Part shown: positions 3,078 to 19,646 of the stretch, in pieces | How positions within the stretch are numbered: the stretch's first letter is position 1 | Layout: the number at the start of each line of letters is the position of its first letter | Translations under genes and position numbers: made by a program | The notes under the pieces: generated by a model | The model's database searches: none | Told to the model about the DNA's origin: nothing | Seen by the model: the letters and a program-made list of their open reading frames with translations, nothing else | Origin: a virus | Virus record (IMG/VR): IMGVR_UViG_3300009620_000090 | Span: 1 to 20,368 of that record | Direction: 5' to 3' (one strand) | DNA length: 20,368 bases

Positions 3078-3307
3078 TGAGACACCTGCGTCCTTTCTTC
3101 AGAGGCGTTTATTATGATTATTCTAAGTTAGGGTCACAGGTAATGGCGACAGTTAAAGAAGTTCAGGCGAAACTAAATACCCATGAAGCGGTCTGTGCTG
3201 AACGGTGGAAAGAGACCATTGAGCGAATAAAGCGTCTTGAGTTGATTATGATTACTTCTGCTGGAGCGGTGATTATCCTGATGGTTGGGATGCTTTGGAA
3301 GATATAA
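3077..3307 (+). CDS. Small coiled-coil/transmembrane protein, XhlA-like layout
   Basis: The protein has 76 aa if started at 3077 (TAATG overlap with the previous stop, but no clear ribosome site), or 54 aa if started at the in-frame ATG 3143, which has AGGG upstream. The shorter form begins MATVKEVQAKLNTHEAVCAE and fits the length of similar small phage proteins I recall. It has a charged helical N-terminal part (HEAVCAERWKETIERIKRLE) and one C-terminal membrane segment (LIMITSAGAVIILMVGMLW). This is the layout of haemolysin XhlA-type proteins, which assist holins in some Bacillus phages. A lysis-accessory or membrane-anchored role is inference. The 5' extension has no recognisable domain. 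Confidence 0.7.
   Translation: MRHLRPFFRGVYYDYSKLGSQVMATVKEVQAKLNTHEAVCAERWKETIERIKRLELIMITSAGAVIILMVGMLWKI
3297..3301 (+). promoter_or_regulatory. Ribosome binding site fixing the start at 3309
   Basis: GGAAG lies 7 nt before ATG 3309. The alternative upstream start in the same frame is TTG 3285 with no ribosome site, so 3309 is preferred. Confidence 0.6.
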
Positions 3308-5594: not shown

Positions 5595-5885
5595 ATGGAA
5601 TGGGCGATAATGACTTTCGGAGGGAAACTGTGCTGCATTTTTGCCTCCGGCTGCGGCGGTTTGGCTAATGTCCTGACGAGCCGCAAGTGGAATCTTGGGG
5701 CGTTGAAGGATATCGCGGTCGCTGTGATTGTTGGGTGGATTGCGGCTGAGTTTTTTATCCCTGCCGCGATGGCCTATTTCCAGTTCAGCGATCAGATCGC
5801 AATCGCCTTGGCTTTCGTCATCGGCTATTGCGGCATCAGGTTGCTGCCAAAGGTTGAGGAAGCCCTCATGCGCCGGATCAAGTAA
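5595..5885 (+). CDS. Holin-like membrane protein (96 aa)
   Basis: This 96-aa protein is hydrophobic with two clear membrane segments (residues about 38-60, IAVAVIVGWIAAEFF, and 66-84, DQIAIALAFVIGYCGIRLL) and a weaker one near 12-27. It ends in a charged basic tail (EEALMRRIK). Size, topology and the Gly-Tyr-x-Gly turn late in the last segment fit phage holins, which open the inner membrane for the endolysin. ATG 5595 directly follows the previous stop and has GGGAGAAGG upstream. It sits amid tail genes, more than 11 kb from the endolysin at 17261, so a different membrane role remains possible. The holin call is family resemblance plus topology, without a diagnostic motif. Confidence 0.65.
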   Translation: MEWAIMTFGGKLCCIFASGCGGLANVLTSRKWNLGALKDIAVAVIVGWIAAEFFIPAAMAYFQFSDQIAIALAFVIGYCGIRLLPKVEEALMRRIK

Positions 5886-15600: not shown

Positions 15601-17264
15601 CCACGGGGAAAGATGGAAAGGTGGTCCCCGAGCTAGATCGAGATTTTAATCTTCAAAAATACTCAGAAGCACCTCCCGCACCGTTCGAGGCGATCCGAGT
15701 TGACGGGGGGCGATCCTTGGGTTTTCGGCTTGCCGAAGGCACCCAACCCACCCCCGTCAACATAGAAATGGTCCAAAGAACTTTGTGGGACAGGTTTAAA
15801 GGATTCGGCACCGGAGACAAGTTCAGTTCAACAGCAGCGGCCCGGTGGATCGAAAATAACGATGCTGCAATTAGATGGCTTAGAGAGGCAACCGGAAAAG
15901 ACACGGGCTTCGAGGACTTAGCAAATGCGAAACGCATTGTTGAAGCTATACGGCATGCGGACATCAGTAAGTTGGACGATACCGTAAGAACCCTGAGAAA
16001 AAACGGCGCATTTAACGAAGATTTCACGGAGGAAGGCTATCGGTTATTGGTTAGAGAAGCAGCGCAAAGAGAGTCCAATCTCCAGTCCGCCGCTATATTC
16101 CTAGATAATCCGGAACCCTTAACCATTGGTACTAAATTCCTAGCTAAATTTAGAACGAACCCCGAAGTTCTACGGAATACGCTTAAAGTCCTCGAAAGCG
16201 GCGTACTTCCAGATGGCAGCAATCCCGCTCTTGAAGGTTTTAGACAGGCGGTGGCGGAAGGTCTGATCCGCGAGGCTTTGACCAAGCCGGGATCCAGCAC
16301 TAATGCTGGAAAGGTAGCAGAGCAGCTTTCAGCACATCTTGGAACAACCGTGACACTCTGGGACCCCCAAGCCCTTCTCAAGCTGGCGAAAGATCCAATA
16401 ATTAGAAGGCTCCTTGGGGAAATGTACGGAGAGGCTGCGCCAAAAGTTTTTGGCGAGATTGCCGAAGCAGCGCGGCTACAGTCACCTATTGGTCCTGCCG
16501 CCACACCCGGAGTTAAAGTAAGAACTGGGGTTTCCGACACTTGGGCTGGTTTTATTGGCCGGTGGATAGGTGGAGTGGCCTCCGACATCATCCCCCTGGG
16601 CTCTCCAAGCAAGCTGTGGGCTCCGGCCACTGGGCGCCAACTCGGTATGGAGGCCCTGGCCGACGTGCGCGGAAGCAGCATAGACAGGTTACTCGTTGAC
16701 CTCCTGATGGAGCCGGAACTTGCTGTCGTCGCCATGGAAAAATTTCCCGTATCAAATCCCCAGGCCAATGCGCTATGGCAAACAAGACTGCGGCTCTATG
16801 CTCACCAAAAGTTTATCGGGGACAACGCAAGGCGTATTCAACAGCTTAGAAACGTGCCTGGAGTTCTGTATGAGGTAGGGGAACCCACAAAATATCAAGA
16901 ATTCGGCGACGACGAAGAAATCCGCTTTCGGAGGGGACCCCGGACATCTCTTCGGGAACCCACGGGAACAAGACCGCGTCGGGTGGCATCTAATGTGCCA
17001 CCTAATGTGCCATCGCCGAGGGCTCCCGTTCAGGGGTCGGTGCTTAGTCGGGTCAGTCCCGTGGGACAACAGCCCATGCCAGTGGGACCACGGCCCACGG
17101 GTCCAGTCTCGCAGGAAACACTTGCTGGCCTAAGCCAAGTGGGGCTTCCACTTTTTGCAAATTATGGTGGTCATATAACCGCAGGAGCGGGTAGCGGAGT
17201 AGGCCGCAACGAAGAATCCGGCATCATGTCTGTCCGATGCAAGCCCCGCCAGATAGTTGGATGA
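12648..17264 (+). CDS. Very large internal virion / ejection protein (1538 aa)
   Basis: This is the largest gene in the window. Residues about 219-243, 268-298 and 306-332 are hydrophobic and Ala/Gly-rich (SLITQIIGAAPVEGALIANM, AAVGGGMVTSISALEA, AGGGLLLPVGAMTAASMAW), as in proteins that cross or line a membrane channel during DNA ejection. Residues about 689-820 form a long charged coiled coil (NNERIVAQRQQELDAASAKF and on). Residues about 1440-1538 are Pro-rich, ending GGHITAGAGSGVGRNEESGI and a basic KPRQIVG tail. I see no lysozyme or transglycosylase signature. The ejection role is inferred from size, membrane-like segments and position as the last structural gene, comparable to the largest internal protein of T7-like phages. 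Its stop overlaps the endolysin start (ATGA). Confidence 0.75.
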   Translation: MAEITHPDFPDIVIDTGTGLQGKDGFWTYQARKGGGNYFDLPSSTPFGPEALEAGINNPGTDVPGNVAALLKGLQFSEQGRPGIVKGTILPAIHKTPANILGLPMEAAQAMAHALLDTPINLVDWAFGGFEGDMPGTRHFSTATPFGGVGSIARGMQNVGDWARRGQEWTEEAGWYVEVPNLPYNLDLGLGGTRWGAGTPLNLFTFTTDIDESTKARRYASLITQIIGAAPVEGALIANMAIKLARTTKNPTTKHVYEAISELHAGHPLAAAAAETAMGAAVGGGMVTSISALEAAWPNAPQWAKNTVMAGGGLLLPVGAMTAASMAWDIGIKTPVIRFPLRVLAGMMESVTLTGAQKAAARALQSKGGDWKDRHEMLGVIGQFRLALIEGRNMDPATRIAFTTPQLFRNEARLLEAKLDAAAPGMPRDEVDAQRKLIEDIRMAADFQEGQLKTLSTDDGVGAEAYAKYSGRMMDRRDSIFSAFNDAILKLDLGGRSDAGVGYKIIQEDYDLGLATGAFEFNTNRMRAFQEGHLELRPEQIQDMSKAFDAVLTKMEEGSQAAIADAERRVAAIRDGMPENISAKDRQLFNMWIRREIETAYQEVDAMEDLLWHNISGLNRPKTESYFTPDGDDLGPQILIDGVPIGEHFAAKAAALKGGEPENQSKWLWKLSGRDALIDQAAKGGGPNAEKIARQNVVIKNNERIVAQRQQELDAASAKFKAAGDIPYESTAYRNAMARVRQLEAELEAVPAHQTPRINSTRIKLEGARAKVVELLRAEAVDPNLTRAETAFNTAQTRLNDAQIKLDTARDNIEISLSKGVDHEGNPVNLDNEIVNRSVLDVQKVGGVLVGREAQELQNIISHLKAELSFEDGRPNRKPAKITAIGDLIDDLERAIADPENFSVDTIALDAARRMTDLKHGLFTKGAVGELRARTTRGEAKVPPEKTIEKIAPTTGQETNLRQLETALAGRHRLMTGQGTPFRMTTGKDGKVVPELDRDFNLQKYSEAPPAPFEAIRVDGGRSLGFRLAEGTQPTPVNIEMVQRTLWDRFKGFGTGDKFSSTAAARWIENNDAAIRWLREATGKDTGFEDLANAKRIVEAIRHADISKLDDTVRTLRKNGAFNEDFTEEGYRLLVREAAQRESNLQSAAIFLDNPEPLTIGTKFLAKFRTNPEVLRNTLKVLESGVLPDGSNPALEGFRQAVAEGLIREALTKPGSSTNAGKVAEQLSAHLGTTVTLWDPQALLKLAKDPIIRRLLGEMYGEAAPKVFGEIAEAARLQSPIGPAATPGVKVRTGVSDTWAGFIGRWIGGVASDIIPLGSPSKLWAPATGRQLGMEALADVRGSSIDRLLVDLLMEPELAVVAMEKFPVSNPQANALWQTRLRLYAHQKFIGDNARRIQQLRNVPGVLYEVGEPTKYQEFGDDEEIRFRRGPRTSLREPTGTRPRRVASNVPPNVPSPRAPVQGSVLSRVSPVGQQPMPVGPRPTGPVSQETLAGLSQVGLPLFANYGGHITAGAGSGVGRNEESGIMSVRCKPRQIVG
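16990..17013 (+). repeat. 12-nt tandem duplication in Pro-rich linker
   Basis: CTAATGTGCCAC is followed directly by CTAATGTGCCAT, encoding NVPPNVPS in the Pro-rich tail of the 1538-aa protein. It is in frame and probably arose by replication slippage. Confidence 0.6.
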
Positions 17265-17710
17265 AGCTGTCCCAGCACTTTTCTCTAAACGAGCTTACAA
17301 AATCCGGAACGGCAATACGCAAGGGCATCGACAACACGCCAAGCGAGACAGAGGTCGAAAACCTTGTCCTGCTTTGCAGCATGGTGTTGGAGCCCGTCCG
17401 GGAACATTACGGGATTCCTTTTGCGCCGAGCAGCGGGTTTCGTTGCCTTGAGTTAAATCGTGCCATTGGCTCCGCCGACACATCCCAGCACGTACTGGGA
17501 AAAGCCGTAGATTTTGAAATACCCGGAATTGACAACAAACGGGTTGCTCTGTGGATAAAAGAAAACTGCATCTTTGACCAGTTGATTCTGGAATTCTACA
17601 GGGAAGAAGAGCCTACCGGCGGATGGATCCACGGTAGCTATGATATAGACAGAGACCCACAGAGAATGTCGGCACGTATCTTCAACGGTAGAAACTGGAC
17701 CTCCCTGTAA
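17261..17710 (+). CDS. Endolysin, peptidase M15-type (149 aa)
   Basis: This single-domain zinc peptidase of the M15 (D-Ala-D-Ala carboxypeptidase/L,D-endopeptidase-like) group is expected to cleave peptidoglycan peptide cross-links at lysis. Motifs visible from Met1 at 17261 are FSLNELTKS near the start, SSGFRCLELNRAIGS (57-71), SQHVLGKAVDFE (75-86) with the zinc ligands H77 and D84, a LILEF segment with E111 as probable catalytic acid, and WIH (122-124) supplying the third ligand H124. The length of 149 aa matches compact phage M15 endolysins. No signal peptide is seen, so it needs a holin or another exit route. The frame is open upstream to ATG 17237, but the ATGA overlap start at 17261 gives the standard N-terminus. 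It converges on the minus-strand lipoprotein with a 3-nt gap. Confidence 0.92.
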   Translation: MKLSQHFSLNELTKSGTAIRKGIDNTPSETEVENLVLLCSMVLEPVREHYGIPFAPSSGFRCLELNRAIGSADTSQHVLGKAVDFEIPGIDNKRVALWIKENCIFDQLILEFYREEEPTGGWIHGSYDIDRDPQRMSARIFNGRNWTSL

Positions 17711-17713
17711 AAA

Positions 17714-17887
17714 CTAAAAACAGTTCCATTCTTTAAGAATTTTCTCCAGATGCTCTATCCGCTTCTCCAGATTTAACATTTCATGCTTTTGCCACAAGCC
17801 GGTTGCGCCGCCTAGAACAGCAGATTCTATCGGTGAGCATCCCAGAACTGGAAGAATTAAGGCAAAGACAACTGCTTTTGGTATCAT
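17714..17887 (-). CDS. Small lipoprotein (57 aa), outer-spanin-like or exclusion factor
   Basis: I read this frame directly from the complement strand: ATG at 17887-17885 to TAG at 17716-17714. The product has 57 aa. Residues 1-17 form a signal (basic Lys4, hydrophobic AVVFALILPVLG) with a lipobox V-L-G-C, so Cys17 is the expected lipidated residue. The mature part has a Gly-rich patch (AVLGGATGLWQKHE) and a charged heptad-like helix (MLNLEKRIEHLEKILKEW). Ser at +2 favours outer-membrane sorting. Size and lipidation suit an outer-spanin-like protein acting with the nearby endolysin, but it is transcribed with the helicase cassette and lacks a visible inner-membrane partner. A surface-exclusion lipoprotein is therefore an alternative. 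It is 17 nt downstream of the 104-aa gene. No strong ribosome site is seen. Confidence 0.72.
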   Translation of the reverse strand: MIPKAVVFALILPVLGCSPIESAVLGGATGLWQKHEMLNLEKRIEHLEKILKEWNCF

Positions 17888-17904
17888 TTCAGCCAGTTTT
17901 TGGA

Positions 17905-18219
17905 TTATCCAACTACAACGTGTTTGTGTGAATAAAGTTTGCCTAACCTTTCCCAGTAGTCCTCACGGGATTCTGGGTTATCATTATACATATAAAAACT
18001 TTCACCCAACCACACCCCCGTGAAATTAGCTGGGTTTCGTCTGAAACGAATCCTCGCTCTGGGTATTTCCTCGTAATCACGATTAAAAGCAGTTAACAGT
18101 AATTTATCATCCTTATCTGATGTAAAACAGTATGGAACCAGCAAACGATATGCCTGCAATACAGATTCGTGTTTAATGAAGAAAGTGTTGACATTTATTT
18201 CAGAATTTATTTCAGCCAT
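17905..18219 (-). CDS. Hypothetical protein in the inverted cassette (104 aa)
   Basis: I do not recognise this 104-aa soluble protein. It begins MAEINSEINVNTFFIKHESV and contains an aromatic/basic middle (ARIRFRRNPANFTGVWLGES) and an acidic then basic end (NPESREDYWERLGKLYSHKH). There is no membrane segment, signal peptide or Cys cluster. Its start overlaps the end of the SNF2 helicase gene by 13 nt, so it is co-transcribed and probably translationally coupled to it. The DNA is clearly more AT-rich than the helicase: the row 18061-18120 has 20 G or C in 60 by hand count, against 39 in 60 at 18541-18600. Acquisition separate from the helicase is a possible reading. Confidence 0.75.
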   Translation of the reverse strand: MAEINSEINVNTFFIKHESVLQAYRLLVPYCFTSDKDDKLLLTAFNRDYEEIPRARIRFRRNPANFTGVWLGESFYMYNDNPESREDYWERLGKLYSHKHVVVG

Positions 18220-19646
18220 TCCCGCGCATCCTCTCCTAAAATGGTGTCAGCAATCTTAATTTTGCTGCGAAGGGCCTCCACGATCTTCTGGTCTATGGTC
18301 CCCGGAGATATCAGGTCAATGTATGTGACCTTGTTTTCCTGCCCAATACGGTGGGCCCGGTCCTCCGACTGTATCCTAAGCTCCAGATCGTAAGAGTTGC
18401 TGTAGTAGATGACGGTGTTGGCGGCGGTGAGGGTAAGCCCGAAGCCGCCCGTTTTAGGGTGCCCCACGAGGAAACGCAATCCTGATTGCCGATCTTGGAA
18501 AGATTCCACGATCTGTTGGCGATCAGAATCCGGCGTCTCCCCGTGGAGCGTTGCAACCGCCTGTACGTCATGGCGGTTACGCAGGGCCTCGGCAATCGAG
18601 CGAATGTCCATGGTCCATGTCGCCCAGATGATTGCCTTACCCTGAAGCTCGCCGCAGATATCGAGAAGCTCGTTAAGCCTGTTTGATTTAATTGGGTGTA
18701 CCTCACCAGCGTCATCCGTCAGATGCCCCAGGCAGATCTGTTGCAGGCGCATGATCTGGGTCAGAACATTCTGAGTGGTTGCCAATTCCCCGCTTGCGAG
18801 GCGAGCCAGCGCCAGATGCCTCATCTGCGTGTAGGCGTCGGACTGCTCCTGAGTCAACTCAACCTCACGCTTCATGTAGACCTTGTCTGGAAGATCGAGG
18901 CAGTCTTCTTTCCTCACGCGGTAAGAGTGGGCTTCCAGGACGTCTGTAAGCTCGTCCAGACGCCGAAAGCCCACGACGTGGTTAAAGCTGTGGGCTCCCA
19001 TCGTGCGGCGCTGTACCACGGCATAGCGGCTCTGGAAGGTGTAATAGCTCTTGAAGCCCAGTATTTTAGGACTGAGGAAGTACATCTGGCTGAACAAATC
19101 CATCGGAGACTTGGTGACAGGAGAACCCGTCAAAATACGACGCATTGCCGCACCACGGCCCACGGAGCAGATTGCCTTGGTCCTCTTTGCCTGACGATTT
19201 TTGATGGTGGTGGATTCGTCCACACCCATGAAAACCTTGAATTTCCCTACAAAGAACTCAGCGACATCCACGCCCTTCTTGGTGCTGAACGCCTCGACGT
19301 TCATTAAAAGAAATTTAAGCTTCCCGTTCTTTTGGTATAGGTCCTTTAGTTCCTGCCGCTTGGTTTTCGTGAGGTTCGGCTTCCACAGAACGATCTCCCG
19401 CTCTATGCGATCCGGCAGATGCGTTTCTATCTCTCTCACCCAGTTAGCGATGACGCCTTTCGGCGCTACGATAATTGCTAGGTTGATCCGCTCTTGCTCG
19501 AAGTTGTAGCCGATTGTATCCAGGCAAACCTTGGTCTTGCCGGTGCCCATGTCCATGAGAAGCGCATATGTTCCGGAATCTACGCTGGCCTCGAATGCCT
19601 CGCGCTGATGCCGATAGGGCTTGGTTTTAAAAAGAAATTTTCTCAT
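18207..19646 (-). CDS. SNF2-type (superfamily 2) DNA helicase/translocase (479 aa)
   Basis: This is an ATP-dependent DNA translocase of the SNF2 group with a full motif set. PYRHQREAFE (10-19) precedes Walker A DMGTGKTK (32-39, Lys37). Motif Ia is IIVAPKGVIANW (58-69), motif II is VDESTT (142-147) with DES in place of the usual DEAH/DEGH box, and motif III is ILTGSP (171-176). In the C-terminal lobe are GGFGLTLTAANTVIYY (motif V) and QSEDRAHRIGQ (426-436, motif VI with Arg430 and Arg433). At 479 aa it is a minimal SNF2 engine with no accessory DNA-reading domain. Phages carry such enzymes in replication modules, where a role in replication, recombination or displacing bound proteins is plausible; the substrate is not visible. 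It is the first gene of a minus-strand operon, with a good upstream promoter. Confidence 0.93.
   Translation of the reverse strand: MRKFLFKTKPYRHQREAFEASVDSGTYALLMDMGTGKTKVCLDTIGYNFEQERINLAIIVAPKGVIANWVREIETHLPDRIEREIVLWKPNLTKTKRQELKDLYQKNGKLKFLLMNVEAFSTKKGVDVAEFFVGKFKVFMGVDESTTIKNRQAKRTKAICSVGRGAAMRRILTGSPVTKSPMDLFSQMYFLSPKILGFKSYYTFQSRYAVVQRRTMGAHSFNHVVGFRRLDELTDVLEAHSYRVRKEDCLDLPDKVYMKREVELTQEQSDAYTQMRHLALARLASGELATTQNVLTQIMRLQQICLGHLTDDAGEVHPIKSNRLNELLDICGELQGKAIIWATWTMDIRSIAEALRNRHDVQAVATLHGETPDSDRQQIVESFQDRQSGLRFLVGHPKTGGFGLTLTAANTVIYYSNSYDLELRIQSEDRAHRIGQENKVTYIDLISPGTIDQKIVEALRSKIKIADTILGEDAREWLK

Follow-up and report, generated by a model that had tools for sequence, protein, structure and literature searches.

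The window, as the whole 20,368-nucleotide stretch of DNA analysed here is called, derives from an uncultured marine (ocean) bacteriophage. At the locus of interest, an M15 endolysin gene on the plus strand (17237..17710; PF08291, E 1.9e-20; PHROG 894 endolysin, E 4.4e-37) converges on a minus-strand unit headed by a SNF2-type helicase gene (18207..19646; PF00176/PF00271; PHROG 62). Two small minus-strand genes lie at the junction. One of them, p104 (17905..18219), encodes 104 amino acids, overlaps the end of the helicase gene and has a GC content of 0.378; relatives of its product that are 63-73% identical occur in other phages. The second, referred to as lip57, is a tiny gene of the kind readily missed in annotation. 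Its 57-codon frame runs complete from an ATG at 17887 to a stop codon at 17714-17716, and 3 nt separate this stop from that of the endolysin, which ends at 17710. A sequence-only reading of the window had described exactly this frame and spacing and had proposed that it is a lipoprotein gene belonging to the helicase transcription unit. In HTVC027P, a relative with a published transcriptome (PMC12753301), the helicase gene (gp87) is likewise convergent with the late genes.

The region 17237-18219 is identical in all four other IMG/VR contigs of the same phage. A fifth contig, G004, carries a diverged homologue of lip57 (62-64% protein identity, 66% DNA identity) which keeps the frame, Met1, the lipobox Cys, the coiled-coil pattern and the C-terminal Cys. 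The homologue again faces an M15 endolysin gene, whose product is 70% identical to that of the window, and the two stops overlap by 4 nt. Its ATG shares 4 nt (ATGA) with the gene before it; since that gene is a different one from p104, lip57 is not tied to p104. The test for selection was made on the single sequence pair formed by the window and G004, and in that pair synonymous changes are threefold commoner than nonsynonymous ones (pS 0.70, pN 0.22; Fisher p = 7e-8), with 17, 8 and 29 differences among 53 codons at the first, second and third positions, respectively, a clear third-position excess. When the same substitutions were placed at random, no trial out of 20,000 preserved the frame together with Met1, Cys17 and the identity. 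Judged by this comparison, lip57 is a real gene under purifying selection on the minus strand, and the conserved frame and lipobox Cys lend support to the lipoprotein gene that had been proposed. That lip57 is a chance open frame in a convergent intergenic gap is highly improbable: the frame is short, its lipobox departs from the textbook form, no Shine-Dalgarno-like sequence is visible before the ATG in the window or in G004, and antisense frame 1 is free of stop codons in each of them, but the third-position bias, the pS and pN values, the retained ATG and Cys and the overlap of the G004 start with the preceding gene speak against it, and the conservation between the window and G004 leads to its rejection. 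Since its wobble positions fall on those of lip57, antisense frame 1 gives similar values (pS/pN 0.63/0.24). Coding on the opposite strand was also rejected, as antisense frame 1 lacks a Met in the conserved stretch and does not appear among the open reading frames of at least 40 amino acids.

G004 holds the only distant homologue of lip57 found in IMG/VR, and a query built from the two-sequence alignment recovered none in viral contigs beyond the same five. None of 46 candidate stretches in the species-genome collection proved to be a homologue, and the best E-values in the search of phage records were 2 (query P0001) and 5 (query P0002). Nothing meaningful or above noise was obtained for the family in Pfam, NCBIfam, PADLOC or the PDB, or in PHROGs (query P0001).

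The 57-residue product reads MIPKAVVFALILPVLG-CSPIESAVLGGATGLWQKHEMLNLEKRIEHLEKILKEWNCF, and from Cys17 onward it begins CSPIESAVLGG. Sequence and pattern scans delimit a predicted signal peptide, MIPKAVVFALILPVLG (17840..17887, minus strand), of 16 residues with one Lys and a short hydrophobic core, followed by the lipobox Cys17 (17837..17839), which is kept in G004. The residue that follows the lipobox Cys governs outer-membrane sorting; in lip57 it is Ser, in the homologue Thr, and neither has Asp at +2. Lipoboxes may be judged by a strict rule, [LVI][ASTVI][GAS]C, or by a PS00013-like rule. The V-L-G-C lipobox pointed out earlier is present, but it is not a textbook one under either: Leu at -2 breaks the strict rule in the window, and Pro at -4 breaks the PS00013-like rule in both lip57 and its homologue, so that the L-V-G-C of G004 passes only the strict four-residue rule. 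Under a relaxed lipobox scan lip57 is the sole match in the 20-kb window. Markov-simulated sequence gives 0.57 such matches per 20 kb, and none equally hydrophobic was seen in 60 x 20 kb. The relaxed lipobox, the hydrophobic core and the Cys conserved in G004 together correspond to an outer-membrane lipoprotein signal, and the lip57 product is probably a short membrane-anchored lipoprotein.

The mature protein would comprise 41 residues, with one Pro and a C-terminal half predicted to form a charged helix. A coiled coil is predicted for residues 36-54 (17726..17782), with L40, I/V44, L47 and L/I51 in 4-3-4 spacing in both homologues, and the C-terminal Cys56 (17720..17722) aligns with a Cys of the G004 protein. 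AlphaFold2 models a single mature helix over residues 21-55 at low confidence (mean pLDDT 65 over the whole model); comparison with coiled-coil chains gave weak matches only. A unimolecular spanin was considered and rejected, as the C terminus has this charged helix in place of a transmembrane segment.

The junction that holds lip57 is unusual in composition and in content. GC over 17714-18219 is 0.395 against a mean of 0.517, and no sampled 506-nt segment is as low. A survey of the slot took in all 80 helicase loci, and a comparison of endolysin loci took in 31 of 80. The endolysin gene is convergent on the same contig in 42 of the 80 helicase loci; at 17 of these junctions the stops overlap, 2 have slots of <=30 nt and 23 have longer ones. 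The slot is empty in many relatives. Among those listed, its occupants include p104-like genes without lip57 (L132, L137 and L139), related 76-90-aa genes, HNH-like genes (read from translations) and a 174-aa gene, and lip57 itself is present in 4 of the 80 helicase loci, all of the same phage. lip57 sits in an AT-rich, variable accessory slot between the SNF2 helicase and the endolysin. The helicase-endolysin junction as such (17711-18206 in the window; the slot in L107-L186) is a gene-gain hot spot, and when filled it mostly contains HNH-like genes or genes of unknown kind. At another helicase locus a late-strand gene for an unrelated lipoprotein candidate of 87 aa takes the place of the endolysin (L129:5404-5667, minus strand); no family match was obtained for its product.

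Directly upstream of lip57, on the same strand, lies a sigma-70-like consensus match, TTCACA-17-GATAAT (17904..17932). It is one of only two 10-of-12 matches of this kind in 20 kb, and it is absent upstream of the G004 homologue. lip57 may have its own promoter, apart from the helicase unit. The earlier assignment of lip57 to that unit agrees with the strand that it shares with the SNF2 helicase but needs qualifying, as the promoter-like site directly upstream means that strand alone no longer predicts the timing of lip57 expression. The contrast drawn in the sequence-only reading, late expression for an outer-spanin-like lysis role and early expression for superinfection exclusion, is still the right discriminator between the two.

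The genome of this phage, estimated from coordinates at ~56 kb, is covered by the window together with three records, G002, G032 and G033, with overlapping ends. G032 and G033 extend the window leftward and G002 extends it rightward, its far end matching the far end of G033; a further record, G031, is 99.99% identical to the window over 10.3 kb. In a relaxed six-frame lipobox scan of this own-species genome, lip57 is the sole lipoprotein candidate. Applied to G007, G036 and G028, the three relatives known to have a PHROG-812 'Rz-like spanin', the same scan recovers that lipoprotein each time, and nothing else in these records qualifies as a lipoprotein candidate. In G007 and G036 it is encoded in the head module, close to a 200-aa protein that combines an N-terminal membrane segment with a coiled coil and for which no spanin family match was found. 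No match to PHROG 812 was obtained in the seven records searched, those of the window's phage included, and no scanned record combines lip57 with PHROG 812. The scan included 14 records from other phages, mostly fragments whose absences say little, and the replacement pattern is based on one own genome in pieces, one lip57-bearing fragment (G004) and three PHROG-812 relatives. No lipoprotein candidate is seen in the 38.5 kb of G034, an incomplete record. Over the first 6.2 kb this record (L275/G034) shares 96% identity with the window, after which the two diverge; G034 is a recombinant relative, and its 61% identical endolysin stands beside different genes. Head-module PHROG-812 lipoproteins of relatives are encoded at L104:1718-2113 and L288:1038-1427, and the family is widespread in IMG/VR, with 415 matching stretches (the best 80 of 415 were kept).

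The best candidate for an inner-membrane partner is a 118-aa protein of the head module (L281:11911-12264, minus strand) with an N-terminal membrane segment and a coiled coil, which weakly matches PHROG 739 'Rz-like spanin' (E 2e-4). A PF11351 holin gene (L281:11507-11911, minus strand; E 3.4e-18) begins where it ends, and in the relatives L313 and L314 this arrangement recurs, followed downstream by a phage lysozyme gene. The PHROG-739 match falls to an E-value of 0.058 in L314, and no such match is listed for L315 or L317 at E <= 0.1. Basic residues follow the membrane segment, so either topology is possible. No convincing lipoprotein is found near the 118-aa gene in five related loci or in the 38.8 kb of G051, and for this reason the 118-aa protein may not be a spanin. 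By an estimate from coordinates, it is encoded ~25 kb from lip57 and on the opposite strand. Two holin candidates are present in one genome, the PF11351 head-module holin and a 96-aa holin-like membrane protein on the late strand (5595..5885, plus strand; PHROG 2359 holin, E 8.3e-6).

The favoured single explanation, at a probability of roughly 40%, is that lip57 is outer-spanin-like and encoded ~25 kb away from its partner, without linkage. It is preferred because the genome has one lipoprotein candidate with a conserved Cys, lacks PHROG 812 and contains a holin, an endolysin and an inner-spanin-like protein. The lip57 lipoprotein would be anchored in the outer membrane, its 41 mature residues providing a lipid-anchored helix, a coiled coil and a Cys. 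It would dimerise through the coiled coil and the terminal Cys and meet an inner-membrane coiled-coil partner, for which the best candidate is the 118-aa head-module protein next to the PF11351 holin; after cleavage of the wall by the M15 endolysin, the two would help to fuse the inner and outer membranes. The sequences show the gene, its conservation, its place as the sole lipoprotein candidate, the missing PHROG-812 spanin and the holin; that the protein is lipidated, where it sits, which partner and dimer it forms, when it is made and what it does are inferred. The fuller proposal, in which an outer spanin on the helicase strand works with an inner spanin ~25 kb away as an unlinked two-component spanin and replaces the PHROG-812 spanin of sister phages, is more tentative.

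Known two-component outer spanins include lambda Rz1 and T4 PseT.2 (Kongari et al. 2018). Like these, lip57 would be a short lipoprotein with a periplasmic Cys, the residue after its lipobox Cys is compatible with outer-membrane sorting and the phage genome has a holin and an endolysin. Rz1 is proline-rich, whereas lip57 has a single Pro in its mature part. In these systems, too, the strand differs from the present case, where lip57 and the late genes are on opposite strands. No embedded, overlapping or closely linked inner-spanin gene accompanies lip57, its neighbours being the endolysin gene and p104, and PHROGs, Pfam and NCBIfam gave no match above noise to any known family of outer spanins; as neither linkage nor a family match was found, lip57 is not to be filed as an outer spanin. 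Cys56, which aligns with a Cys of the homologue, could form an intermolecular disulphide. Passages of the main spanin survey state that spanins often carry a terminal periplasmic Cys for an intermolecular disulphide and that lipoprotein genes are rare in phages (PMC6139136). The same passages give 91 of 677 phages as having no spanin and 31 genomes as having a lipoprotein without a linked inner spanin, and they put the widest spanin pair at ~1 kb, farther pairs being beyond recognition under the survey's standards (PMC6139136). No unlinked pair like lip57 and the 118-aa protein was found in print within a limited literature collection. The PHROG-812 proteins of G007, G036 and G028 resemble lip57 in being the only lipoprotein candidate of the record; however, they are 126-131 aa long and unrelated in sequence, and in G007 and G036 they are encoded in the head module on the late strand. 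Other points that count against a spanin are the location of lip57 downstream of a replication-type helicase, the variable accessory slot with its unusual base composition, the lipoprotein-free G034 record, the weak spanin identity of the 118-aa protein and the small number of genomes behind the exclusive lip57/PHROG-812 pattern.

The main rival, unlikely yet serious, is that lip57 is a superinfection-exclusion lipoprotein that shields the infected cell against rival phages. The strand of lip57 is compatible with early expression, and its location as the last gene of the helicase unit, the AT-rich slot with changing contents and the patchy presence, with one distant homologue in IMG/VR, fit exclusion better than a spanin. 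Known exclusion proteins are small outer-membrane lipoproteins that act from the periplasm. In published passages, T5 Llp is such a lipoprotein, expressed early and holding a Cys11-Cys58 disulphide (PMC9586334), and Rtp45 is an exclusion lipoprotein of about 6 kDa (PMC12685063). lip57 would resemble both as a small lipoprotein, likely on the periplasmic side of the outer membrane and possibly early. However, no similarity to Llp, Cor or Rtp45 emerged from the search of phage records, where no T5- or T1-type record appears among the 14 matched at E <= 10, and mature lip57 is predicted to be a single helix with a coiled coil and one further Cys, as against the disulphide-linked pair of Llp.

Less likely again, lip57 could be another accessory envelope lipoprotein, which for example changes or braces the outer membrane and hitch-hikes in the slot. 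The wide variation in slot contents, from HNH-like genes (again as read from translations) to small genes of unknown kind, is consistent with this, as are the occurrence of p104 without lip57, the different gene beside lip57 in G004 and the lack of a family assignment. Such a role, however, does not by itself predict that the sole lipoprotein candidate of the genome would occur together with a holin, an endolysin and an inner-spanin-like protein.

A pairing of lip57 with the 118-aa protein would mean that unlinked spanins exist and that the two partners do not have to be adjacent. Screening whole genomes for a single lipoprotein together with an orphan inner spanin would then be a means of finding such pairs, and some of the phages now recorded as lacking spanins might yield theirs in this way. 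Going by the passages of the main spanin survey cited above, the lip57 pair would be of the distant kind that the survey could not identify (PMC6139136). Should lip57 turn out to act in exclusion, the slot next to the endolysin would be a defined site at which this phage group exchanges exclusion genes. With either role, lip57 is a small protein under selection that is readily omitted from annotation.

Elsewhere in the window, positions 3143-3307 on the plus strand encode a conserved protein of 54-55 aa with a C-terminal membrane segment (THEAVCAERWKETIERIKRLE...). It belongs to no named PHROGs family and is 79-98% identical in three relatives, and it is possibly a lysis or tail accessory protein.
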